From Hyphomicrobiales bacterium (GTDB lineage: Bacteria; Pseudomonadota; Alphaproteobacteria; Rhizobiales; Rhizobiaceae): 64,000 nt of DNA. Below the pieces are notes generated by a model. The model searched no databases, had not been told where the DNA came from, and saw only the letters and a program-made list of their open reading frames with translations. The stretch covers positions 46,442-110,441 of the forward strand of contig UBMP01000012.1 in NCBI GenBank assembly GCA_900466575.1, read 5' to 3'. Position numbers and translations under genes: made by a program. The first letter of the stretch is position 1. Each line of letters starts with the position of its first letter. Positions 4,051 through 51,410 of the stretch are shown piece after piece.

Positions 4051-4623
4051 TCAGCTCTTTCTCAGGATCACGGCGTAACGGCAGGGTGCAGAGGCGGGAT
4101 TTTCAAACACCGTGCCTTGATTCAATGTCATGTGCAGGCAATCGCCCGTCTCCAACTCATGCCGTGCCCCGTCGCATTCCATGATGAGCCGGCCCTCAAG
4201 CAGCCAGACATATTGTTCCACGGCAGGGTCGGCGAGGACGGGAGGCATGGCGGCGCGGGCACCCGTCGGGAGCGTCACATCGACAAGATCGGTGGCGATC
4301 GCAAATCCCGCCGGCGACACGGCGCGGCGGACGTAGCCTGTCTCTGGATCGCGCCACACCGGCTGCTCGGCAAGGCGCCGCATGGGCGAGGGCGCCTCCG
4401 ATGCGTTCGCAAAGAAACCCGACAAGGTTTCCTTGAGAGGCCCCAACAGCCGCGCCAGCAGCGCCGCCGTCGGACTTGCCTCGCCTCGCTCGATCTTGGA
4501 GATCATGGCCCGGCTGACGCCTGAGGCCGTCGCAAGCTGATCGAGCGTCATTGTGCGATTCTGCCGCAGCGTCTTCAGAGACAGCCCGATCGACTTTTCA
4601 AAATCTTCAGCCAAATTTTCCAT
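4051..4623 (-). CDS. XRE-family regulator with C-terminal cupin domain
   Basis: This 190-residue transcription factor has an N-terminal helix-turn-helix (about residues 12-66; LDQLATASGVSRAMISKIERG). A single-domain cupin follows (about 110-185, with the LLEGRLIMECDGARHELETGDCLHM type of strand pattern) that probably binds a small ligand. The reading frame continues 73 codons upstream, but the ATG at 4623 starts the family-typical N-terminus (MENLAEDFEKSIGLSLKTLR). A dyad at 4635-4648 sits directly before the start. It is cotranscribed with the following GNAT gene. Autoregulation is inferred. Confidence 0.87.
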   Translation of the reverse strand: MENLAEDFEKSIGLSLKTLRQNRTMTLDQLATASGVSRAMISKIERGEASPTAALLARLLGPLKETLSGFFANASEAPSPMRRLAEQPVWRDPETGYVRRAVSPAGFAIATDLVDVTLPTGARAAMPPVLADPAVEQYVWLLEGRLIMECDGARHELETGDCLHMTLNQGTVFENPASAPCRYAVILRKS

Positions 4624-6220: not shown

Positions 6221-8359
6221 TCAGCGGTTCCGCCGCAACCCGGCAATATCCCCCAGCACGGCATTGGCTGCCGCCATCACATTCGAGCCGGGCCCGAAGA
6301 TTTCGGCGACACCGGCATCGCGGAGGAACTGGTAGTCCTGCTCCGGGATGACGCCGCCGGCGACGACGATGATATCGTCCGCGCCCTTTTCCTTGAGCTT
6401 GGCGATCAGTTCCGGGATCAGCGTCTTGTGACCCGCTGCGAGCGAGGAGACGCCGATGACGTCCACCTTTTTGCCGATTGCCTTATCGGCAACTTCCGTC
6501 GGCGTTTCGAACATGTCGGTAAGGTCCACCCGGAAGCCCATGTCGGCAAAGGCGGTGGCGATCACCTTCGCGCCGCGATCGTGGCCGTCCTGGCCCATCT
6601 TGGCGACGAGGATTGACGGCTCCGTGCCGCGCTCCGCCTTGAAGGCCTCGATCTTGGCACGAATCGCCTTGTATTCCGCATCTTCCTGATAGGCATCGGC
6701 ATAGACGCCGGAAATGACGCGGGTGGAGGCATGATGGCGCGAGAAGGCGCGCTCCATGGCATCGGAAATCTCGCCGAGCGAGGCGCGGGCGCGGGCTGCC
6801 TCCACGGCGGCGGAGAGCAGATTGCCCTGACCCGAGGCGGCAACCTTTTCTAGCGCCTTGAGTGCTGCCTCGACCGTCTTGGGGTCGCGTGTTTCGCGGA
6901 TGCGGGTCAGGCGCGCGATCTGGCTCGCGCGAACCTTCGCATTGTCGATCTCGAGGATGTCCACCGAGGGCTCGTTTTCCAGCCGGAACTTGTTGACGCC
7001 GACGATGACGTCCTCGCCCCGGTCGATGCGCGCCTGCTTGCGCGTGGCGGCTTCCTCAATGCGCATCTTCGGCAGGCCCTGTTCGACAGCCTTGGTCATG
7101 CCACCCAGGCTTTCGACCTCCTGGATCATGGACCACGCCTCTTCGGCGAGCTGCGCCGTCAGCGCCTCGACATAATAGGAGCCGCCGAGCGGATCCACGA
7201 CATTGGTCACGCCGGTCTCATGCTGGAGGATGAGCTGCGTGTTGCGGGCGATGCGGGCGGAAAACTCCGTCGGTAGCGCAATCGCCTCGTCGAAGGAATT
7301 GGTATGCAGCGATTGCGTACCGCCCAGCACGGCGGCGAGCGCCTCATAGGCGGTGCGGACGACGTTGTTATAGGGGTCCTGCTCGGTCAGCGACACGCCA
7401 GACGTCTGGCAATGCGTGCGCAGCATCTTCGAGCGTTCCGACTTGGCGCCGAAATCCGTCATGATCTTCGACCAGAGCTGGCGCGCGGCGCGCAGCTTGG
7501 CGGCTTCCATGAAGATATTCATGCCGATGCAGAAGAAGAAGGAGAGCCGGCCGGCGAAGTCGTCGACATCGAGCCCCTTCTTCATCGCCGCGCGGACATA
7601 TTCCATACCGTCGGCGAGTGTATAGGCGAGTTCCTGGCTGAGCGTCGCGCCGGCTTCCTGCATGTGATAGCCGGAAATGGAGATGGAATTGAACTTCGGC
7701 ATCTCCTTTGCCGTGAACTCGATGATATCGGCCACGATCCGCATCGAGGGTTCCGGCGGGTAGATATAGGTGTTGCGGACCATGAACTCCTTGAGAATGT
7801 CGTTCTGGACCGTGCCCGTCAGCTTGGCGCGCGGCACGCCCTGTTCTTCGCCGGCGACGATGAACATGGCCAGCACCGGAATGATCGCGCCGTTCATGGT
7901 CATGGACACGCTCATTTCGCCAAGCGGAATCCCGTCGAACAGGATCTTCATGTCCTCGACACTGTCGATCGCCACGCCCGCCTTGCCGACATCGCCGACC
8001 ACGCGCGGGTGATCGCTGTCATAGCCGCGATGGGTGGCGAGGTCGAAGGCGACGGAGAGGCCCTTCTGCCCGGCCGCGAGGTTGCGGCGATAGAAGGCGT
8101 TGGACTCTTCCGCCGTCGAGAAGCCCGCATATTGCCGGATCGTCCAGGGCTGGCCCGCATACATGGTGGCACGTACGCCGCGCGTGAACGGGGCGATGCC
8201 GGGGAGCGCGGTGGCGGCGTCGGCGGGCAGGTCATCGGCCGTGTAGAGCGGCTTCAGGGTGATGCCTTCGGGCATTTCCTTGTTCAGCGTCGATGGGTCC
8301 GCGCCCTTGAGTTCCTTTGAAGCGAGAGGGAGCCATGCAGAATTGATCGTCTTCGTCAT
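6221..8359 (-). CDS. mcm: Methylmalonyl-CoA mutase, B12-dependent
   Basis: This 712-residue cytoplasmic enzyme converts methylmalonyl-CoA to succinyl-CoA with adenosylcobalamin. The N-terminal TIM-barrel domain has family phrases such as [20 protein letters not shown] and [18 protein letters not shown]. The C-terminal ~130 residues are the cobalamin domain, with the D-x-H-x-x-G signature (GQDGHDRG, His593 as lower axial ligand) and the downstream AGG and GPGSNV elements. It is the single-chain homodimer form. A GAGGAGACGCC ribosome site precedes ATG 8359. It lies downstream of pccA, and the gap between them is a hairpin-rich repeat. In rhizobia this gene is also called bhbA or scpA. Confidence 0.96.
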
Positions 8360-15234: not shown

Positions 15235-16005
15235 TCAATGCAGGCCGAATTCGCTCAGCAATTCCTCTCTCAGCTTCACGAACCCGCTTTCGCTGCGGTT
15301 TCGCGGCCTTAGCAGATCGACTTCGATCGTCCTGATCCTCCCGCCCTTCTCCTTCGGCAATACCAGAACGCGGTCAGCGAGGTAGATGGCTTCCTCAAGG
15401 TCGTGGGTAACGATGACCATGGTGACCTTTTCCTCGCGCCAAATGCGGGCCAGCTCTTCCTGCATGGTAAGCTTGGTCATGGCGTCAAGCGCGCCCAGAG
15501 GTTCGTCAAGAAGCAGGATTTCCGGCTGGATGGCGAGCGCGCGGGCGATGCCGACGCGCTGCGCCATGCCGCCCGAGAGCTGTGACGGGTAGGCTTCGAC
15601 GAAGTCCGTCAGCCCCACGAGCTGGACGTAGCGACGAGCGTGCTTTCGGGCCTCGTCGCGCGACAGACCGCGCACTTCCAGCGGGAAGGCGACGTTTTCG
15701 ATGACGGTGCGCCAGGGAAGCAATCGCGGCTCCTGAAAGATGACCGCCCGCTCGGTGCCAACGCCGTGGACGGGCTGGCCGTCGATCAGAACCCGGCCTT
15801 CATCAGCCTCCTCGAGACCTGCGAGAATGCGCAGCAGCGTCGTTTTGCCGGAGCCGCTGGCCCCGACGATCGCGAGGCACTCGCCGCCGCGAATGTGGAG
15901 GTTGACACTGCTGAGCACATTCAGCGCGCGGCCATTGATGTTGAATGTCTTGGAGAGGTCGCGGACAGTCACCTCTCCGCGTAGCGTTTGCGTTGCGGTC
16001 GTCAT
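15235..16005 (-). CDS. ssuB: ABC transporter ATPase, SsuB/TauB type
   Basis: This 256-residue ATPase has Walker A GASGSGKTT near residue 50, a Q-loop FQEPRLLPW, the signature LSGGMAQRVGIARAL and Walker B ILLLDEPLGALD. The sequence around the Q-loop and the D-loop is characteristic of the nitrate/sulfonate/taurine family. It is the last gene of a five-gene minus-strand run (FMN reductase, monooxygenase, permease, binding protein, ATPase). It energises uptake of an organosulfur compound. The exact substrate cannot be read from sequence. The 215 bases between it and pccR show no gene. Confidence 0.85.
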   Translation of the reverse strand: MTTATQTLRGEVTVRDLSKTFNINGRALNVLSSVNLHIRGGECLAIVGASGSGKTTLLRILAGLEEADEGRVLIDGQPVHGVGTERAVIFQEPRLLPWRTVIENVAFPLEVRGLSRDEARKHARRYVQLVGLTDFVEAYPSQLSGGMAQRVGIARALAIQPEILLLDEPLGALDAMTKLTMQEELARIWREEKVTMVIVTHDLEEAIYLADRVLVLPKEKGGRIRTIEVDLLRPRNRSESGFVKLREELLSEFGLH

Positions 16006-16067: not shown

Positions 16068-17072
16068 TCAGTTGCTGGCAAAGCGTTCCGGCGTGTAAAG
16101 CACGTTTTCGACCTTGATCTGATCTTTCTTGATCTGACCTTCGCGCACGAAGATATCGACCCAGAACTGCAGGTCGCGATCGACCGCCTTGGCGCCGGGA
16201 CGTAGGCCATATCCGGTGAAGTACTGGGCGATGTCGCCATTCTCGCCGCGCGCTGTCAGAACTTTTGCGATGATCTTCTTGGTTTCTTCCGGGTGCGTTC
16301 GAGCATAATCTGCGGCGCGCTCGGATTGCTCGATAAAGACCTTCGCGGCTTTGGGATGCGCGTGGATCCAGTCGCGGCGCAGGACCACGAAGCCCCCGGC
16401 GATTTCGCCGAGCACGTCGGTATCGCCGAAAATCTTCTGCAGTCCACCATTCTTCAATGCGGCACCCTCAAAGGTCTTCTGCCAGTAGCCGAAGGCGGTC
16501 ACGTCGACCTGCCTGGAGCGCAGCACCTGCTCCAGCTGCGGGCCGGGAACGACGACAAGCTTGGCAGCGTTTTCCGGCAGGCCGACGGAATGCAGCGCCT
16601 CGCGCACTGTGTAGTCGAGATGGGCGCCCAGCGTGTTGACCGCTATCGTCTTGCCGGCGAGGTCTTTGATCGACTTGATCGGGCTTCCCTCCAGCGAATA
16701 GAAGATGCTTTCCGTGTCCTTGTTGATGCCGTTCGACGGATAGGCCGCGACAAAGTCGTTGCCGCCGGCGATCGAATTCAACACGGCGGAGGTTGCGGCG
16801 CTGCCGAGTTCGACATTTCCGGATGCAAGAGCGAAAAGCGAAGCCGGACCGCCCTGGGCATAGCCGACATTCTCAATCTTGATTCCTGTGCCGTCGAAGT
16901 AGCCGAGTGCGTCTGCAAGCTCGTGGCCAGAGAGGCCGCCCTGGCTGGCGAGGTAGCGGATCTTCACGTCTTCCGCACCGGCGGCAAAGGCGAAGCTTGC
17001 CGGGGTCGAAAGGAAGAGGCTGGCCGAAAGCGCAGCCAGGCCGTTGAAGCGACGGCGGTTGATGGCGGTCAT
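16068..17072 (-). CDS. ssuA: Sulfonate-type periplasmic substrate-binding protein
   Basis: This 334-residue protein has a signal peptide of twin-arginine appearance (INRRRFNGLAALSASLFLSTPASFAFA) and an SsuA/NMT1-like binding fold. Recognisable elements are KIRYLASQGG, ELGSAATSAVLNSIAGG and GKTIAVNTLGAHLDYTVREAL. ATG 17072 is chosen because it has AAGGAGAG eight bases upstream and begins the signal peptide; the open frame extends 42 codons further. Binding protein for the SsuB/SsuC-like system. A sulfonate, sulfone or sulfonate-ester ligand is inferred from the neighbouring monooxygenase and FMN reductase. Confidence 0.83.
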   Translation of the reverse strand: MTAINRRRFNGLAALSASLFLSTPASFAFAAGAEDVKIRYLASQGGLSGHELADALGYFDGTGIKIENVGYAQGGPASLFALASGNVELGSAATSAVLNSIAGGNDFVAAYPSNGINKDTESIFYSLEGSPIKSIKDLAGKTIAVNTLGAHLDYTVREALHSVGLPENAAKLVVVPGPQLEQVLRSRQVDVTAFGYWQKTFEGAALKNGGLQKIFGDTDVLGEIAGGFVVLRRDWIHAHPKAAKVFIEQSERAADYARTHPEETKKIIAKVLTARGENGDIAQYFTGYGLRPGAKAVDRDLQFWVDIFVREGQIKKDQIKVENVLYTPERFASN

Positions 17073-17130
17073 ACGATTCTCTCCTTGATCAATGGGTTTG
17101 GCGATGGTGCCTGGTCTGTCTCGGGCCGGT

Positions 17131-18009
17131 TCAGGCCTTTGCAGGAGCCCAGCGGCACAGTCGCTTCTGAAGGGTTTCGAGGATACTGTTGGCGACAAGT
17201 CCCAGAGCCGCCAGCAAGAGGATTGCCCCGAACATCAACGGGATCTGGAAATTGTATTGCGCGTTCATCACCTGGAAGCCGAGGCCGCTATTGGCGCCAA
17301 TCATTTCGGCGGCGATCAGCAGCAGGAGCGCGGTGGTGGCGCTCAAGCGCAGGCCGACGAAGATCTGCGGAAGGGCGCCGGGCAGGACAACGCTGCGAAA
17401 GATATGCGAGCGGCGCGCGCCATAGACGCGGGCCATTTCGATGAGCTTGGGGTCAGCCTGTTTCACGCCACCGATTGTGGCGAGCAGGATCGGAAACAGC
17501 GTCGCCCAGAAGATGACGAAGACCTTGGAGGTTTCGCCGAGGCCTAAGAGCAGGATGAAGACAGGATAGAGTGCCAGTGCCGAGGTCTGGCGCAGCAGCT
17601 GCAGGATCGGGTCGAGCGCGCGCTCGACAACCCGTATTCCACCCATGAAAAGGCCGAGCGGAATGCCAAGCGCAACGGCCGCAGCAAAGGCGATGCCGGC
17701 GCGTTGCAGGCTGATGGCGACATCGCGCCAGAGCGGGCCGTTGACGAAGCCGTTGACCAGCGCGTCCCAGATACGGTCAAGCGGCGGGATGACCGCCGGG
17801 TTGATCCACCCGGCGGTTGCCGATACCTGCCAGAGGACGGCGAGGGCGATGATGGAACCATAACGCACGACAACGTTCTGTACACCGCCCCGGACAAGCC
17901 GGCCGAGCACGCCCGTGGAGAAGGCGGGGCCGACCTGCCCGGATCTCAGTCTGCCCGTTTTCGACGGGCTGTTGTTCAGCGGATAGGACTGTTCGATATC
18001 GAGCGCCAT
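17131..18009 (-). CDS. ssuC: ABC transporter permease, SsuC/TauC type
   Basis: This 292-residue inner-membrane protein has about six transmembrane helices. The cytoplasmic coupling helix (EAA-like loop) is in MARVYGARRSHIFRSVVLPGALPQIFVGLRLS near residues 195-225. It belongs to the nitrate/sulfonate/taurine permease family. AGAGGAC precedes ATG 18009. It lies 58 bases upstream of the binding-protein gene and 30 bases after the monooxygenase gene, in one operon. Confidence 0.86.
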   Translation of the reverse strand: MALDIEQSYPLNNSPSKTGRLRSGQVGPAFSTGVLGRLVRGGVQNVVVRYGSIIALAVLWQVSATAGWINPAVIPPLDRIWDALVNGFVNGPLWRDVAISLQRAGIAFAAAVALGIPLGLFMGGIRVVERALDPILQLLRQTSALALYPVFILLLGLGETSKVFVIFWATLFPILLATIGGVKQADPKLIEMARVYGARRSHIFRSVVLPGALPQIFVGLRLSATTALLLLIAAEMIGANSGLGFQVMNAQYNFQIPLMFGAILLLAALGLVANSILETLQKRLCRWAPAKA

Positions 18010-18039: not shown

Positions 18040-19401
18040 TTATTCGGCGGCCTGGACGGCGCCTTGCGCCAGCGTCCAGCGGTTCTGCGGGAAAGGCAGG
18101 CCGAGATTTTCGCGCAGCGTCCTGCCCTCGTATTCCGTACGGAAGAGACCGCGACGTTGAAGCTCCGGAATGACCAGATCGACGAAGTCATTCAGGCCCG
18201 TCGGCAGCCACGGCGGCAGGATGTTGAAGCCATCGGCGGCCTCGTTTTCGAACCATTCCTGCAGCGTGTCGGCGATCGTTGCCGGCGTGCCGACGATGGT
18301 GAAATGACCGCGTGCCGAGGCCACCCATTGATAGAGCTGGCGGATGGTGAAGTTGTTCTCGTCGGCGATCTGGCGGATGAGCGCCTGACGGCTCTTCATG
18401 CCTTCCGTCGGCGGGGCCGGCGGCAGCGGGCCGTCGAGATCGGCGCCCGTCAGATCGAGTTCACCGCCGGTGAGGCCCTTGATGAGAGCAAGGCCATCCT
18501 CTTCGAGGATGAGGCTGGTGAGACGTTCGTATTTCTCCTTCGCCTCGTCCAGCGTGCGACCGACGAAGGGCGAGACGCCGGGCATGATCAATACGTGATC
18601 GGGATTGCGGCCAAGACCACGGGCACGGGACTTGATATCGCGATAGAATTCCTGCGCCGTCTCGATGTGCTGGTGGGCGGTGAAGATGACCTCCGCCGTC
18701 TGGGCCGCAAGCCCGCGACCGTCATCCGATTGGCCGGCCTGCACGATCACCGGATGGCCCTGGGGCGAGCGCGAGACGTTGAGCGGGCCGCGAACCTTGA
18801 AATGCTCGCCGCGATGATTTGTGTAATGCACCTTGTTGGGGTCGAAGAAGCGGCCGGTCTCGCGGTCGCGAATGAAGGCGTCGTCTTCGAAACTGTCCCA
18901 GAGTTTCTTGACCACCTCAACGAATTCGCCGGCGCGCTTGTAGCGGAAGGCATGCGGATGCTGATGGTCGAGGTTGAAGTTCTGCGCGGCGGATTCGGTC
19001 GCCGTCGTCACCACGTTCCAGCCGGCGCGACCATCGGAGATGAGATCGAGCGAGGCGAATTTGCGGGCGAGATTAAAGGGCTCCTCATAGGTCGTGGAAG
19101 CCGTGGCGATGAAGCCGAGATGGGTCGTGAGGGGCGCTAGCGCCGAGAAGAGTGTTACGGGTTCGAAGCCAGCCACCTTGGCATTGCCGCCTTCGATGCC
19201 GCCCCCGAAGGCAATTGCCAGTCCATCGGCGAGGAAATAGGCGTCGAAGAGGCCGCGTTCTGCCGTCAGCGCCAGCTGCTTGTGGAATTCGAAACTGGTT
19301 GCGCCGTCCGTCGGCTGGTCGGGATGACGCCAGGCGGCAATGTGCTGGCCGCCGCCGGGAAGGAATGCACCGAGTCTGATCTTGCGTGTCATGATCTTCA
19401 T
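18040..19401 (-). CDS. LLM-class flavin-dependent monooxygenase (NtaA/SnaA/DszA family)
   Basis: This 453-residue protein has the bacterial-luciferase TIM barrel of the two-component FMNH2-dependent monooxygenases. Family phrases include LGAFLPGGGQHIAAWRHP, RAGWNVVTTATESAAQNF, GHPVIVQAGQSDDGRGLAA and TIADTLQEWFENEAADGFN. Enzymes of this family use free reduced FMN and O2 to break C-S or C-N bonds. With an FMN reductase upstream and a sulfonate-type transporter downstream, the likely job is desulfurisation of an organosulfur compound. The start may be ATG 19401 or ATG 19392. Substrate unassigned. Confidence 0.85.
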   Translation of the reverse strand: MKIMTRKIRLGAFLPGGGQHIAAWRHPDQPTDGATSFEFHKQLALTAERGLFDAYFLADGLAIAFGGGIEGGNAKVAGFEPVTLFSALAPLTTHLGFIATASTTYEEPFNLARKFASLDLISDGRAGWNVVTTATESAAQNFNLDHQHPHAFRYKRAGEFVEVVKKLWDSFEDDAFIRDRETGRFFDPNKVHYTNHRGEHFKVRGPLNVSRSPQGHPVIVQAGQSDDGRGLAAQTAEVIFTAHQHIETAQEFYRDIKSRARGLGRNPDHVLIMPGVSPFVGRTLDEAKEKYERLTSLILEEDGLALIKGLTGGELDLTGADLDGPLPPAPPTEGMKSRQALIRQIADENNFTIRQLYQWVASARGHFTIVGTPATIADTLQEWFENEAADGFNILPPWLPTGLNDFVDLVIPELQRRGLFRTEYEGRTLRENLGLPFPQNRWTLAQGAVQAAE

Positions 19402-19481: not shown

Positions 19482-20090
19482 TCAGAAGCCTGCCGCGGCT
19501 GTCTGCTGCTGCAGGCGCAGGTGGCTTGCCGGAGCAAAGCTTCTTTCCTGCTGGCGATGTTCGCGCAGAAAGGGCGCGAACTGCTCGACCGCCCGGTCGA
19601 GCCGGTCCAGCACCGCCCTGTTGGTGAGGCGACCCTCGGCGAAATCGCGTTCGGACACATATACGCCCGTTGCGAGCGTCTGTGTTTCGAAGAAGGCGAA
19701 GAGCGGGCGCAGCTGGTGCTCGATGATCAGGGCATGCTTTTCACCGCCACCCGTTGCAGCCAACAGGATCGGCTTGCCAGCGAGCCACGTTGGATCGATC
19801 AGGTCGAAGAGATGCTTGAAGAGGCCGGGATAGCTGCCCTTGTAGACCGGACTCGCGATTACGAGTGCCTTCGCCTGGACGATCCGGTCGACGATGCTGC
19901 GTGCTTCTTCGCCAAGATCATTAAAGCTGCGCGCGAGGCCGAGTTCCGGTCCGAACTGACCGAGATCGTAGACCTCGGAGTTCTTTTCGAACCGAGTTGC
20001 CACGCGACGAACGGCCTCTTCGGTCAGGACGCGCGTCTTGGAGGGAGTGCTGAAACTGCCGGAAAGGCCCACGATGACAGCGGCGGACAT
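19482..20090 (-). CDS. msuE: NADPH-dependent FMN reductase (MsuE/SsuE type)
   Basis: This 202-residue flavodoxin-fold protein reduces FMN for the adjacent monooxygenase. The phosphate-binding loop LSGSFSTPSKTR is near residue 10, and ASPVYKGSYPGLFKHLFDL and ATGGGEKHALIIEHQLRPLF are typical of MsuE. Of the two ATGs, 20090 is preferred: GGAG lies six bases upstream, whereas ATG 20096 abuts the ribosome site. It heads the five-gene sulfur operon. A GTCTA-N9-TAGAC operator lies 22 bases upstream of the start. Confidence 0.88.
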   Translation of the reverse strand: MSAAVIVGLSGSFSTPSKTRVLTEEAVRRVATRFEKNSEVYDLGQFGPELGLARSFNDLGEEARSIVDRIVQAKALVIASPVYKGSYPGLFKHLFDLIDPTWLAGKPILLAATGGGEKHALIIEHQLRPLFAFFETQTLATGVYVSERDFAEGRLTNRAVLDRLDRAVEQFAPFLREHRQQERSFAPASHLRLQQQTAAAGF

Positions 20091-20112
20091 GCGCATCTCC
20101 TTTGTACATAAT

Positions 20113-20131
20113 GTCTACATTAATAATAGAC
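20113..20131. promoter_or_regulatory. GTCTA-N9-TAGAC operator, copy 1 (msuE operon)
   Basis: Perfect 5-bp inverted arms are separated by 9 bases (CATTAATAA), in an AT-rich promoter region directly upstream of the FMN reductase gene. The same geometry recurs at 22553-22571 and 23167-23185. The adjacent Rrf2-family regulator is the best candidate to bind it. Confidence 0.72.
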
Positions 20132-20262
20132 TAATACCGAGAAAGCGTGTCCGTCCATTCCATAATCAGAGGCTGCGAGAGATGTCCTGAACTCCTGAAG
20201 GCAACGCGCACGATAGAAATTCTCTTCGCGGTTTTGAGCGGTGCCTGACCTGAAAACAATGG

Positions 20263-20289
20263 AGCCGGGACCCTCTCCGGATCCCGGCT
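20263..20289 (-). terminator. Hairpin downstream of the FAD-protein gene
   Basis: The perfect stem AGCCGGGA / TCCCGGCT with an 11-base loop lies about 34 bases past the stop of the FAD protein on the minus strand. It is followed there by TCCATTGTTTTC. It is a reasonable, though not classic, factor-independent terminator separating this operon from the msuE operon. Confidence 0.55.
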
Positions 20290-20322
20290 TCAATGAACGA
20301 TCACGATTTTTGCATTGCGGAT

Positions 20323-21678
20323 TTATGGGAGGCGGGCCACGGAATTGCGTGTGACGTCGCGGCGTCCTGAGGTAATCCGCTCAGCAATCTGACGCGCCTG
20401 TTCGCGGATGTCCGGCACCGCAATCGATTCCCAGAATGTGCCGAGTGTCACCGGACCGATGCCGAAGATGCGCGAGGACGCATCCCCGTTTGCGTTGACG
20501 AGGGCACAGTTGCGATCGAATTCCAGGCCGAGACCCAGCTTTTCCAGCCGTGCCGCGCCGCTTTCCACCAGAGCGCCGACGAGGCCCTTAAGCTCCTGAT
20601 CCGTGCGGCGGCGCACGCCCCGGCAGTCATAGATGATGTCCGCCTTGAACGGGCCCGGCTCGTACCAACCGGGGCGCATGACATTGGCAAACAGCCGGTC
20701 GCCCCGCCGCTCTGCGGAGAGGAAGCGGCCCTTGACGATTTCGAGCTGGCCGCTTTCCAGCGCTGCGGCGATGCGCGTCGCCTGGGCCGGCGGCATACGG
20801 TGGCGATGCACGTCCCAGAAGGCAGCGGCATGTCGGAGGAAGCGCTGACGCGACTCCGTCGGAAGGTTCTTCCAGACCGTCTGGATATGCGGACGCATGC
20901 CGTCCATGACGTCGCGCCAGTCGCCACCATTCTTGACATGCGTGCGCACAAGATCGGTGAGCCACCGGCTGAGATAATGAATGCTGGCGCCGAGCGGGAT
21001 GTCAGCTGTGGAGAGCTGCAGCGGGCGATGCAGCGCGTGACGCTGCGACACGAGCCCCCGCCGCGACACGGCGACAATCTTGCCCTTGTGTCCATTGTCG
21101 AGCAGGGACAGGACCGTATCGACCATGGTCAGGCCCGTGCCGATGACCAGCACGCGCGCGTCCCTGTTTTCCGGAAGCGGATCGGTCCACGGGTTGGACA
21201 GAAGTCCTTCGCTTTCGGGTTTCAGACCGAAGCCAGTCGCCACGATCGCAAAGTGGGCAGGCAGAGACGATCCGTCGGCCAGCGTTACCTCGACGCCGTT
21301 CTCCAGTTCGCGCATGCCGACACAGGCCTGTCTGATGATGCGAAGCTTGCCGACCGGCGCGGTCTCGCGAAGTGCTGCCTCCAGATATTCGCCATAAATG
21401 CTGCGCGGTACGAAGGGACCGTTGCGGGTGAGTTCGGGATAATGAACCGCCAGCCAGCGATCGAAATGATCGGGCGAGCCGGAGAATGCGCTGAGCTGTG
21501 CCGAGCGCACGTTAAAGAGATGCGAGGGGTTTGTCGTCAAATAGGCCAGGCCCTTGCCGATCTCGTCGCTCGCCTCGACCAGTGTGACGCGCAGTGCGCC
21601 ATCGCCCAGCCGGAAGAGATTGGCAGCCATGATGGCCCCGCTGGCTCCGCCGCCTGCGATTACGATGTGATGCGTCAT
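20323..21678 (-). CDS. FAD/NAD(P)-binding protein of the YdhS-like family
   Basis: This 451-residue protein opens with a dinucleotide-binding fold (IVIAGGGASGAIMAANL). A second nucleotide motif VLVIGTGLTMVDTVLSLL follows near residue 175, with an ATG-type motif IVATGFGLKP between them. The layout matches the poorly characterised FAD-NAD(P)-binding proteins such as E. coli YdhS. It lies 40 bases downstream of an Rrf2 regulator gene in the same direction, and between sulfur genes. A redox role in sulfur or cysteine metabolism is inferred from context only. GGGAGGCGG supports ATG 21678. Confidence 0.8.
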   Translation of the reverse strand: MTHHIVIAGGGASGAIMAANLFRLGDGALRVTLVEASDEIGKGLAYLTTNPSHLFNVRSAQLSAFSGSPDHFDRWLAVHYPELTRNGPFVPRSIYGEYLEAALRETAPVGKLRIIRQACVGMRELENGVEVTLADGSSLPAHFAIVATGFGLKPESEGLLSNPWTDPLPENRDARVLVIGTGLTMVDTVLSLLDNGHKGKIVAVSRRGLVSQRHALHRPLQLSTADIPLGASIHYLSRWLTDLVRTHVKNGGDWRDVMDGMRPHIQTVWKNLPTESRQRFLRHAAAFWDVHRHRMPPAQATRIAAALESGQLEIVKGRFLSAERRGDRLFANVMRPGWYEPGPFKADIIYDCRGVRRRTDQELKGLVGALVESGAARLEKLGLGLEFDRNCALVNANGDASSRIFGIGPVTLGTFWESIAVPDIREQARQIAERITSGRRDVTRNSVARLP

Positions 21679-21718
21679 TTCCGCCTCCCGGGTTGGAGCG
21701 GAAACCGCATGGCCCCGC

Positions 21719-22177
21719 TCAGGATATTTCCAGAAACTCGTCTTGTTCGAGGCGCGCCGCCTCCACCATGGACCGCATGTCGGCCAGGGACTTCGTGTCG
21801 AGCACGGAAGCTATCGCCTCCCGGACCTCCAGCATCGACAGACGCACGGCGCATGTCGCTTCGTCGGTACAATCGCTGCAGCGTTGATAGGCCGTACGGC
21901 TGGCGCAGCTGATCGGCGCCAGCGGCCCATCGAGAACCCGCAACGCATGGCCGACCATGATGTCTTCCGGACGATGTGCCAGACGATAGCCGCCGCTGCG
22001 GCCCTTGCGCGTCTCGACAAAGCCGCCATTGCGCAAATCGGCGAGGATCGCGTCGAGAAATTTCTTCGACATGCCGTAGGTCTCGGCGATCTCCACCGAC
22101 TGGGCGACCGTTCCTTCCGGGATGCCCGACAGATAGTGAAGCGCCTTCAAACCATATTTGCCCTTCATGGTGAGCAT
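21719..22177 (-). CDS. Rrf2-family transcriptional regulator, four-cysteine type
   Basis: This 152-residue protein has the Rrf2 winged helix (MLTMKGKYGLKALHYLS; wing RKGRSGGYRLAHRPEDI). The C-terminal region holds four cysteines, C91, C100, C103 and C109, close to where IscR, NsrR and RirA bind an Fe-S cluster. Dimerisation is expected through the long C-terminal helix. Related regulators control cysteine and sulfur genes (CymR) or iron genes (RirA). The surrounding operon content and the shared operator argue for sulfur or cysteine control. The gene is preceded by a 48-residue membrane peptide gene and an operator. Confidence 0.87.
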   Translation of the reverse strand: MLTMKGKYGLKALHYLSGIPEGTVAQSVEIAETYGMSKKFLDAILADLRNGGFVETRKGRSGGYRLAHRPEDIMVGHALRVLDGPLAPISCASRTAYQRCSDCTDEATCAVRLSMLEVREAIASVLDTKSLADMRSMVEAARLEQDEFLEIS

Positions 22178-22360
22178 CGGTCTGCAAATCCTTGTCGCGA
22201 CAGGTTTCGCGGCGCGCCGGAGGCGCCATTCCGCGGCCCGTCATCACTCTCGTCTCGAACTCGTGCATCGCAGGTCTCCGCCGATTTTCTCGGCTGCCTG
22301 ACGATATTGCGGTTTGCGGAGCGGATACCGATCCTTCGGTGCCGCCCGGCTTCACAACCC

Positions 22361-22507
22361 TTAGAAAAACGCACCGGGCTTCAGAACTAGAACCGCAACC
22401 ACGCCATAGGCAGCCAGGAATGCCATCCAGCCCAAGACCCGCCTAGCGGCCGGTCCGCTGAAATTCTGACTCATCTTGATATGCGAATTCGTCCAATGTC
22501 TGGTCAT
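22361..22507 (-). CDS. 48-residue single-pass membrane peptide
   Basis: This short frame runs from ATG 22507 to TAA. It has a strong ribosome site (AGGGAG, about 8-9 bases upstream). The product has a polar, basic N-terminus (MTRHWTNSHIKMSQNFSG) and then one clear transmembrane helix rich in Ala, Leu, Val and Gly (about residues 23-42), ending LKPGAFF. It sits between a GTCTA-N9-TAGAC operator and the Rrf2 gene, so it should be the first gene of that transcript. I do not recognise the family. The gap of about 180 bases to the Rrf2 gene holds nothing else obvious. Confidence 0.6.
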   Translation of the reverse strand: MTRHWTNSHIKMSQNFSGPAARRVLGWMAFLAAYGVVAVLVLKPGAFF

Positions 22508-22552
22508 TAAGGCATCTCCCTTTCAGGGTGGAGCTGCTTCTAACACAGGATA

Positions 22553-22571
22553 GTCTATTACGTTTGTAGAC
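22553..22571. promoter_or_regulatory. GTCTA-N9-TAGAC operator, copy 2 (Rrf2 operon)
   Basis: The arms are perfect and extend to AGTCTA / TAGACT, with a 9-base spacer (TTACGTTTG). The site lies 46 bases upstream of the small peptide start. It implies autoregulation of the peptide-Rrf2-FAD protein unit. Confidence 0.74.
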
Positions 22572-22639
22572 TTTGTAAATTCTCTTTCGACCCCCTTTAA
22601 GAGAAAATTTATCTTCTTTAAGGCGAAAGAGGGGAGAGT

Positions 22640-23104
22640 TCAGCGGTTGAGCGTGTCCACCGGATACGCCGTCGTGCTCTTGATACGCTCCATCGCGAAA
22701 TGCGACGTGACATTCTTCAGCGCCACGGCCTCCGTCAGGCGACGATAAAACGCGTCAAAGGACGCCATGTCGGCGACTGCGACTTTCAGCATGTAATCGA
22801 TCTCGCCTGCCATGCGGTGAATTTCCATCACTTCCGGCATCGCACCGATGGTGTCTGAGAAATTGTTACGCCAAGCGGGGCTATGGTCCGCTGCCTCTAT
22901 TGCGACGAAGACCGTTAGTCCAAGCCCGACCGCCTCCGGGGAGACCAGCGCGACACGGCGCAGGATGACGCCGCTCTGCTCCAGTTTCTGGATGCGCTTC
23001 CAGCACGGCGTCTGCGACAGGGCCACTTGCTCGGCGATCTGCGCAACGGAAAGCGTCGCGTCATTTTGAAGGGCGGCTACGATCTTGCGGTCGATCAGGT
23101 CCAT
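22640..23104 (-). CDS. decR: Lrp/AsnC-family regulator, DecR-like
   Basis: This 154-residue protein has an N-terminal helix-turn-helix (LIDRKIVAALQNDATLSVAQIAEQVALSQTPCWKRIQKLEQ, residues 3-44) and a C-terminal RAM ligand domain. Phrases such as TTPCWKR-type recognition helix, GLGLTVFVAIEA, MPEVMEIHRMAGEIDYMLKV and HFAMERIKSTTAYP closely resemble E. coli DecR (YbaO), the activator of cysteine detoxification. The frame is open 83 codons further upstream, but ATG 23104 begins the family-typical MDLIDRK. A third copy of the shared operator lies 63 bases upstream. Cysteine sensing is inferred. Confidence 0.85.
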   Translation of the reverse strand: MDLIDRKIVAALQNDATLSVAQIAEQVALSQTPCWKRIQKLEQSGVILRRVALVSPEAVGLGLTVFVAIEAADHSPAWRNNFSDTIGAMPEVMEIHRMAGEIDYMLKVAVADMASFDAFYRRLTEAVALKNVTSHFAMERIKSTTAYPVDTLNR

Positions 23105-23166
23105 GTCTCGTTGCCCGGCTGCTTTGGTTTCGGTGCAGGCCACATCAACCGGGATGATATATATTA

Positions 23167-23185
23167 GTCTATAAATTAAGTAGAT
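23167..23185. promoter_or_regulatory. GTCTA-N9-TAGAT operator, copy 3 (DecR-like gene)
   Basis: Left arm TTAGTCTA and right arm TAGATAA share 9 base spacing (TAAATTAAG) with the other two copies, with one mismatch in the dyad. The site is in an AT-rich promoter zone upstream of the Lrp-family regulator gene. Confidence 0.65.
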
Positions 23186-50888: not shown

Positions 50889-51410
50889 ATGCGCATCACG
50901 ATGCGAACCAATTTGGCGATCAGGACGCTGATGTTCTGCGCGGTCAATCCGCATGTCACGGTCCGCAAAAGCGACATTGCCGCCGCGTGCAATGCATCGG
51001 AGCACCATCTCGCGCAGGTCATCCGGACGCTCGGCCATCATGGCTTTGTTGACGCGACGCGCGGCCGTAATGGTGGCCTTCAACTGATGCGCCCGCCCGC
51101 CAGCATCAATATCGGTTCGGTCTTCAGGCTCTTTGAGGCGGATCTGCCCTTCGCGGAATGCTTCAGCGCCTCCAACACCTGTCCATTGGTGGCCGTCTGC
51201 TGGCTGCGTGATGCCATCAGCAATGCAGTCGATGCGTTCTATCGCTCGCTGGACAAGGTTCTCCTCTCGGACCTGATCGATGGCAACGAGAGGCTTGCGG
51301 AACTGCTGCGCCTCAATTTCGGCTGCCGCCGTGAGGGCAGCGACGAACCGCGCGAAACCCTGGCATCGTTTGATCTCGATTCACGCGTTGCCTTGTCGAC
51401 CGCTCTCTGA
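50889..51410 (+). CDS. nsrR: Rrf2-family nitric-oxide-sensing repressor (NsrR-like)
   Basis: This 173-residue protein aligns by eye with NsrR: the opening RITMRTNLAIRTLMFCA, the wing RGRNGGLQLMRPPASINIGSVFRLFEADL and the cluster cysteines C91, C98 and C104 (FAECFSASNTCPLVAVCWLR). NsrR binds a [4Fe-4S] or [2Fe-2S] cluster that reacts with NO and releases DNA. Its target here is most likely the divergent cyd operon. It has a C-terminal extension of about 25 residues with no clear function. Confidence 0.88.
   Translation: MRITMRTNLAIRTLMFCAVNPHVTVRKSDIAAACNASEHHLAQVIRTLGHHGFVDATRGRNGGLQLMRPPASINIGSVFRLFEADLPFAECFSASNTCPLVAVCWLRDAISNAVDAFYRSLDKVLLSDLIDGNERLAELLRLNFGCRREGSDEPRETLASFDLDSRVALSTAL

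Follow-up and report, generated by a model that had tools for sequence, protein, structure and literature searches.

Known Regulators of Sulfur Supply and the Rrf2 Family

Among the closest described systems to the one discussed here, a 19-bp inverted repeat (GTCTA-N9-TAGAC, the dyad) and an Rrf2-family protein encoded beside it in a member of the Rhizobiaceae, is CymR of Bacillus subtilis and Staphylococcus aureus. The DNA in question is a stretch of 64,000 nucleotides from Hyphomicrobiales bacterium (assembly GCA_900466575.1, contig UBMP01000012.1, positions 46,442 to 110,441 of the forward strand), which in its full length is called the window. In B. subtilis, CymR forms a complex with CysK (O-acetylserine thiol-lyase) and has cysteine as its signal, and it is described as having no iron-sulfur (Fe-S) cluster (PMC9338935), in contrast to the four cysteines kept in the window protein. 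The two proteins share the Rrf2 fold, sulfur metabolism as target and, as proposed here, a repressor type of action, and in both cases operators, here candidate ones, lie before sulfur uptake and assimilation genes, a likeness of position. They differ in that CymR comes from another phylum and the window protein scores far below the cut-off of the CymR family.

In enterobacteria, the cys, ssu, and tau genes are controlled by CysB and Cbl, whose targets are likewise sulfate and sulfonate uptake and flavin-dependent desulfonation, but these are LysR proteins and not members of the Rrf2 family. Within that family, NsrR, RirA, and IscR resemble the window protein in fold and in having cysteines in the corresponding region (the solved structure 4cic is of the IscR type), but they serve iron, nitric oxide, or Fe-S assembly genes, whereas sulfur genes are concerned here. 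RirA boxes and NsrR sites also differ in sequence from the dyad. RirA and NsrR are described with three cysteines (PMC5863699, PMC5411485), in contrast to the four found here. A search of open-access literature, with subscription papers and preprints outside its scope, listed no paper on a regulator or operator of this kind for sulfur, whether in rhizobia or elsewhere in the Alphaproteobacteria.

A Conserved Dyad Before Sulfur Genes

We consider the dyad to be the operator of a sulfur-starvation regulon repressed by the four-cysteine Rrf2 protein, a reading to which we give a probability of about 0.78 and in which we infer binding, repression, and signal. Because the dyad stands before sulfur genes, both in the soil bacterium studied and in related bacteria, mostly in genomes that also encode this Rrf2 protein, it is probably a switch for sulfur uptake under shortage.

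Three sites in the window are intergenic and each precedes a minus-strand ATG; no strand is assigned to the sites themselves. Operator 1 (20113..20131) is an exact dyad, GTCTACATTAATAATAGAC, 16 bp 5' of the ATG of msuE. Operator 2 (22553..22571), also exact, is GTCTATTACGTTTGTAGAC and lies 45 bp 5' of the ATG of a small-peptide gene, upstream of the genes for Rrf2 and a flavin adenine dinucleotide (FAD) protein as well. Operator 3 (23167..23185), GTCTATAAATTAAGTAGAT, lies 62 bp 5' of the ATG of an Lrp/AsnC-family gene. The first-pass annotation, made from the letters of the window, had counted three copies of the dyad in promoter position; the position holds for all of them and the copies at 20113 and 22553 are exact, but that at 23167 is only a near copy, its sole mismatch being the last arm base. 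The two exact dyads compare with 0.003 expected in the window under first- or second-order Markov models. With up to two mismatches allowed, there are 9 matches compared with 6.2 in shuffled sequences, of which 18 in 100 have at least as many; the six two-mismatch matches were discarded as without meaning, the shuffles showing this to be the chance level.

A scan of the source genome (5.14 Mb in 44 contigs) gave an additional exact copy, for a total of 3 compared with 0.22-0.25 expected under Markov models. This third exact dyad lies 28 bp 5' of a sulfate-binding-protein gene (sbp), whose product passes the substrate-binding models of sulfate ATP-binding cassette (ABC) transporters (459.4 bits against a cut-off of 288). 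The gene heads a transport operon whose ATPase passes the sulfate model TIGR00968 (377.3 against 342.75) and falls below the CysA equivalog (381.7 against 502). Of 17 places in the genome with at most one mismatch, 15 were read: four are the operators discussed here, and ten are coding or precede genes without an evident sulfur link. The other (L007), a one-mismatch copy before a TauD-family gene, was rejected as a target; the site model introduced below misses it at E<=10. A separate observation concerns GTCAACTAACATGTTAGAC, which is unchanged in three members of the genus (L009 = G000:C28:293719; G002:C45; G005:C10). Its L009 copy lies between UxaA-like and GntR-like genes, and the element is perhaps a GntR operator.

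Six genomes of the genus hold 3, 3, 3, 1, 2, and 4 exact dyads, and 15 of these 16 copies precede the same four units, headed by msuE, the small-peptide/Rrf2 genes, the Lrp gene, and sbp. Counterparts of operator 1 are exact at the msuE promoter in G001, G002, and G005, with differing spacers, and those of operator 2 are exact in G002, G004, and G005 with one mismatch in G001. Operator 3 is exact in G001 and G005, has one mismatch in G004, and is degenerate in G002 (8 of 10 arm bases). When members of the genus are compared pairwise at each window promoter (4, 5, and 4 sequences for the three), the 10 arm bases are 93-100% identical, the 9 spacer bases 50-74%, and the flanks 62-85%; among the sbp copies the spacer is unchanged. 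The sixteenth exact copy, in G003, lies near genes that look patatin-like and SDR-like by eye. In that genome no match was found to Rrf2 at E<=1e-30, to the sulfate-binding protein at 1e-20, or to Lrp at 1e-50, and the site model gives none at E<=10. No msuE match was found in G004 within the stretch examined there, and this genome has two further one-mismatch sites, near monooxygenase-like and FAD-protein genes. Outside the genus, Agrobacterium vitis (L019) has an exact dyad at 7064, 16 bp 5' of its msuE match.

Operator 2 overlaps promoter-like hexamers, TTTACA-16-TAGACT (22552..22579 on the minus strand; 9 of 12 matches). Matches of this type number 2 in the stretch compared with 1.2 in shuffled sequences, which is weak alone. 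By reading, the dyad also overlaps hexamers at sbp (TTGACT-16-TAGACT) and, in other genera, at the small-peptide gene (TCGACA-16-TAGACT). A dyad over promoter hexamers is in the position of a repressor, and for this reason we propose that the genes are repressed while sulfur is plentiful and released when it runs short.

Site Contexts and Association With Rrf2 Across the Rhizobiaceae

The exact dyad is present in 93 of 297 Rhizobiaceae genomes. Twenty-nine sites from 16 genomes, picked for their sulfur context, went into a sequence-only site model, R1. At E<=10 its hits in the source genome number four and had all served in training, so that what the model adds there is the absence of further hits. 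R1 matches 60 of the 297 genomes (E<=0.05), and homologues of the window Rrf2 protein (E<=1e-30) occur in 140. With training genomes included, 57 of the 60 R1-positive genomes encode Rrf2, those lacking it being G091, G254, and G291. When the 16 training genomes are removed, Rrf2 is found in 41 of 44 R1-positive genomes compared with 83 of 237 others (Fisher 1.3e-13, uncorrected for kinship). These 44 genomes represent 25 genera, of which 23 are wholly Rrf2-positive. In Rrf2-positive genomes, at least 24 of 59 non-training R1 sites lie within 10 kb of a listed Rrf2 gene. Among the exact matches listed, 59 are non-genus sites; 41 of these are in Rrf2-positive genomes, and 15 of the 41 are linked to Rrf2. 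One such linked site, that of G147, adjoins a gene without relation to sulfur and probably arose by chance.

The genes next to these sites were also read. Fifteen of 17 R1 loci from non-training genomes adjoin a luciferase-like monooxygenase, a small peptide, Rrf2, or cysH; of the other two, L232 adjoins a substrate-binding protein that is sulfonate-type by eye and L244 has no sulfur context. Among 28 exact loci outside the genus (L116-L143), the context is one of sulfur, Rrf2, or small-peptide genes at 11 and is ambiguous at 3, a classification made partly by eye. Many of the monooxygenases were named by eye or from weak similarity, and Pfam confirmed all three that were tested (L117, L126, L242). 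In other genera, the site stands before sulfonate-type transporters and luciferase-like monooxygenases, and in one genome before cysH. At that locus (L243, around 1505; G275:C24), cysH (NF002537, above cut-off) is on one side of an exact dyad and a more distant Rrf2 gene, with 41% identity, on the other. The arrangement suggests a third type of Rrf2 for the reduction of sulfate in some Rhizobiaceae. Another locus, L191 (G284:C18), has dyads at 4218, 6247, and 6434 within 2.3 kb, two with one mismatch and one exact, which precede a sulfate-binding-protein operon, a CitMHS/TrkA_C transporter, and an Rrf2 gene. Exact dyads of other genera, at 1501 just before a gene that is PRC-barrel-like by eye (L101, L103, L132, L133), were set aside, there being no sulfur genes, and perhaps belong to another regulator with a similar site.

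The spacing of the arms was compared in 20 regions (252 kb), where, at no more than one mismatch, the 9-bp spacing gives 34 copies and each of twelve other spacings gives 0-5. In the same regions, the mean number of exact copies for 59 permuted palindromes is 0.12 and the maximum 3. The regions were mostly picked for exact copies, and the main evidence is therefore the ten one-mismatch copies, at least one of which was known beforehand. In more distant Alphaproteobacteria, matches to 8 of 10 arm bases occur before Rrf2 at what is, by estimate, about the chance level.

The Four-Cysteine Rrf2 Protein

The Rrf2 protein proposed as reader is encoded at 21719..22177 on the minus strand (PF02082, 110.9 bits against a cut-off of 30). 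All 82 of the sequences compared have its four cysteines, C91, C100, C103, and C109, a figure biased by the fact that two of the six search peptides span them; the pattern C-x8-C-x2-C-x4/5-C is found in 30 of 30 loci identified by E-value. Five Rrf2-family genes of the source genome score above cut-off, two of them in the four-cysteine branch, and by reading the remaining three have three cysteines in the corresponding region. The second branch member (C29:121152-121574) is 74-75% identical to the window protein, is convergent with the sulfate operon, and is identical at 19 of the 20 residues from 34 to 53, a stretch that contains the predicted recognition helix. A further Rrf2-family gene of the window, at ~50898-51281 on the plus strand (G000:C32:97339-97722, L259), lies near a gene that is MsrA-like by eye and encodes three cysteines without the four-cysteine pattern of the sulfur branch.

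The AlphaFold model of the window protein has a predicted local distance difference test (pLDDT) score of 92.0. The model has the winged-helix Rrf2 fold; its top Foldseek matches are Rrf2 proteins, the best being CymR (2y75, E 3.2e-11), and a sequence search of the PDB ranks 4cic first and CymR second. The protein is below the cut-offs of four described subfamilies, scoring 72.5 bits against 195 for the CymR equivalog NF047409 and, with the NCBIfam models, 57.6 against 193 for RirA, 64.6 against 182 for NsrR, and 49.3 against 207.55 for IscR. Seven sulfur-type gene clusters were considered around 80 Rrf2 loci of other Alphaproteobacteria, and at 37 of these loci a cluster member lies no more than ~5 kb away. 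Representatives of the sulfate-binding protein, CysW, SfnB, and taurine-binding protein clusters score above cut-off, those of the SsuC-like and TauD-like clusters score below it, and the monooxygenase cluster was named by its similarity to the window gene.

Genes of the Three Window Units

The unit behind operator 1 lies entirely on the minus strand and comprises an MsuE-type NADPH-dependent flavin mononucleotide (FMN) reductase (19482..20096; TIGR03566, 220.6 bits against 212.5), an NtaA/DmoA-family FMN-dependent monooxygenase (18040..19401; TIGR03860, 581.9 against 279.7), and an SsuABC-like ABC transporter. The latter is made up of an SsuC-like permease (17131..18009; PF00528), for which the top NCBIfam match, SsuC, is below its cut-off (169.1 against 347), an SsuA-like substrate-binding protein (16068..17198; PF09084), which is also below cut-off with TIGR01728 (99.2 bits against 163.5), and an SsuB-like ATPase (15235..16005; PF00005), for which every NCBIfam equivalog is below cut-off.

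The second unit, likewise on the minus strand, consists of the small peptide, Rrf2, and an FAD-NAD(P)-binding protein (20323..21678; PF13454). The peptide, a reading frame of 48 amino acids with one hydrophobic stretch (22361..22507), is the first gene downstream of operator 2, gave no match in a Pfam scan, and has homologues in G001, G002, G004, and G005. A peptide with one hydrophobic stretch directly follows the dyad in several genera (L116, L117, L131, L223, L230, L245, L247, L249), and such peptides often precede a monooxygenase or Rrf2 gene. In an alignment of nine, those from outside the genus are 18-29% identical to the window peptide, and none of the seven members scanned has a Pfam match.

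The third unit is the Lrp/AsnC-family gene (22640..23104 on the minus strand; PF01037 and PF13404). General Lrp/AsnC models match its product, all NCBIfam equivalogs are below cut-off, and the nearest PDB chain is the AsnC-family regulator 3i4p. The label "DecR-like" given to it in the first-pass annotation is a putative one and unproven.

Which Regulator Reads the Dyad?

Several observations weigh against the proposed regulon. The reversed-pattern control has 4 exact copies genome-wide compared with 3 for the dyad, and with one mismatch allowed the dyad has 17 and the control 80, so that the raw genome-wide count proves nothing and position and conservation carry the case. The exact pattern alone is noisy because 14 of the 28 non-genus loci have no sulfur context. 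No site with up to two mismatches was found before cysH of the source genome in the upstream 230 bp, where the contig begins, and at msuE and Lrp the dyad is not surrounded by clear promoter hexamers. The Fisher test ignores kinship, and some training and non-training genomes share genera; 83 of the 140 Rrf2-positive genomes have no R1 match at E<=0.05, and 26 of the 41 exact non-genus sites listed in Rrf2-positive genomes are unlinked to Rrf2. By sequence, the best solved relative of the protein is of the IscR type rather than CymR. The control count and the loci without sulfur context would fit a dyad that arises in AT-rich promoters by chance or through their composition and has no regulatory role. 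This explanation is highly improbable given that 15 of 16 genus copies stand at four units while their spacers change, that the 9-bp spacing is so much the most frequent (in regions mostly picked for exact copies), and that the site co-occurs with Rrf2 outside the training genomes.

If the dyad is an operator, its reader could be the Lrp/AsnC protein, with Rrf2 merely one target, as the near copy in the promoter of the Lrp gene, exact in two relatives, and the presence of an Lrp gene near Rrf2 at 15 of 80 loci in other Alphaproteobacteria might indicate. Rrf2 tracks the site but close Lrp homologues do not (17 of 60 site-positive genomes compared with 56 of 237 others, p 0.50, at E<=1e-50, an arbitrary limit with more distant Lrp proteins outside its reach), and the top Lrp match beyond the genus is only 58% identical, which makes this reader improbable. 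Somewhat less improbable, and still unlikely, is another regulator such as a CysB-like LysR protein, Rrf2 accompanying sulfur genes for other reasons: the co-occurrence comparison covered Rrf2 and Lrp only, and LysR proteins do control sulfur genes in enterobacteria. Such a regulator would not account readily for a site tightly linked to two different Rrf2 paralogues in one genome, nor for the many non-training sites near Rrf2, and the position over the small-peptide/Rrf2 promoter fits a repressor more than a typical activator. Rrf2 had been named as the likely reader in the first-pass annotation, and co-occurrence, linkage, and the second paralogue beside the sulfate operon with its exact site all point to this candidate. 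The sulfur regulon of that annotation has likewise gained from the exact copy at sbp and the sulfur contexts in other genera; it was right in substance, a view these results support, with the fourth site at the sulfate operon as the more telling one.

Proposed Mechanism and Significance

In the mechanism we propose, the reader would be the Rrf2 protein encoded beside the dyad, and its C29 paralogue probably shares its sites. In sulfur plenty, an Rrf2 dimer would occupy the dyad over the core promoter, at least at the small-peptide/Rrf2 unit and the sulfate operon, and block RNA polymerase. In shortage, Rrf2 would release the dyad, allowing expression of sulfate uptake, sulfonate uptake and oxidation, the small-peptide/Rrf2/FAD-protein unit, and the Lrp gene. 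Judged by gene content, the putative targets are sulfate transport, sulfonate-type transport, and luciferase-like monooxygenases. The four conserved cysteines are likely the sensing site, which may take the form of an Fe-S cluster or a thiol switch. By analogy, we propose that the outcome would resemble that of CymR (PMC9338935), with repression in plenty and release in shortage.

A broader possibility, which we hold tentatively and regard as rather doubtful, is that the four-cysteine Rrf2 branch, apart from CymR and from NsrR, RirA, and IscR, is a widespread alphaproteobacterial sulfur regulator. It would gauge sulfur through its own cysteine-bound Fe-S cluster or a persulfide and repress the uptake of sulfate and organosulfur compounds, in Rhizobiaceae by way of GTCTA-N9-TAGAC and in other groups by way of operators that have diverged, with an undescribed small membrane peptide as part of the regulon. 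If the regulon proposed for the window dyad is right, the regulator, the exact 19-bp operator, and a short list of targets would be open to direct testing, and the candidate sensor may provide a direct link between sulfur supply and the state of an Fe-S cluster or thiols.

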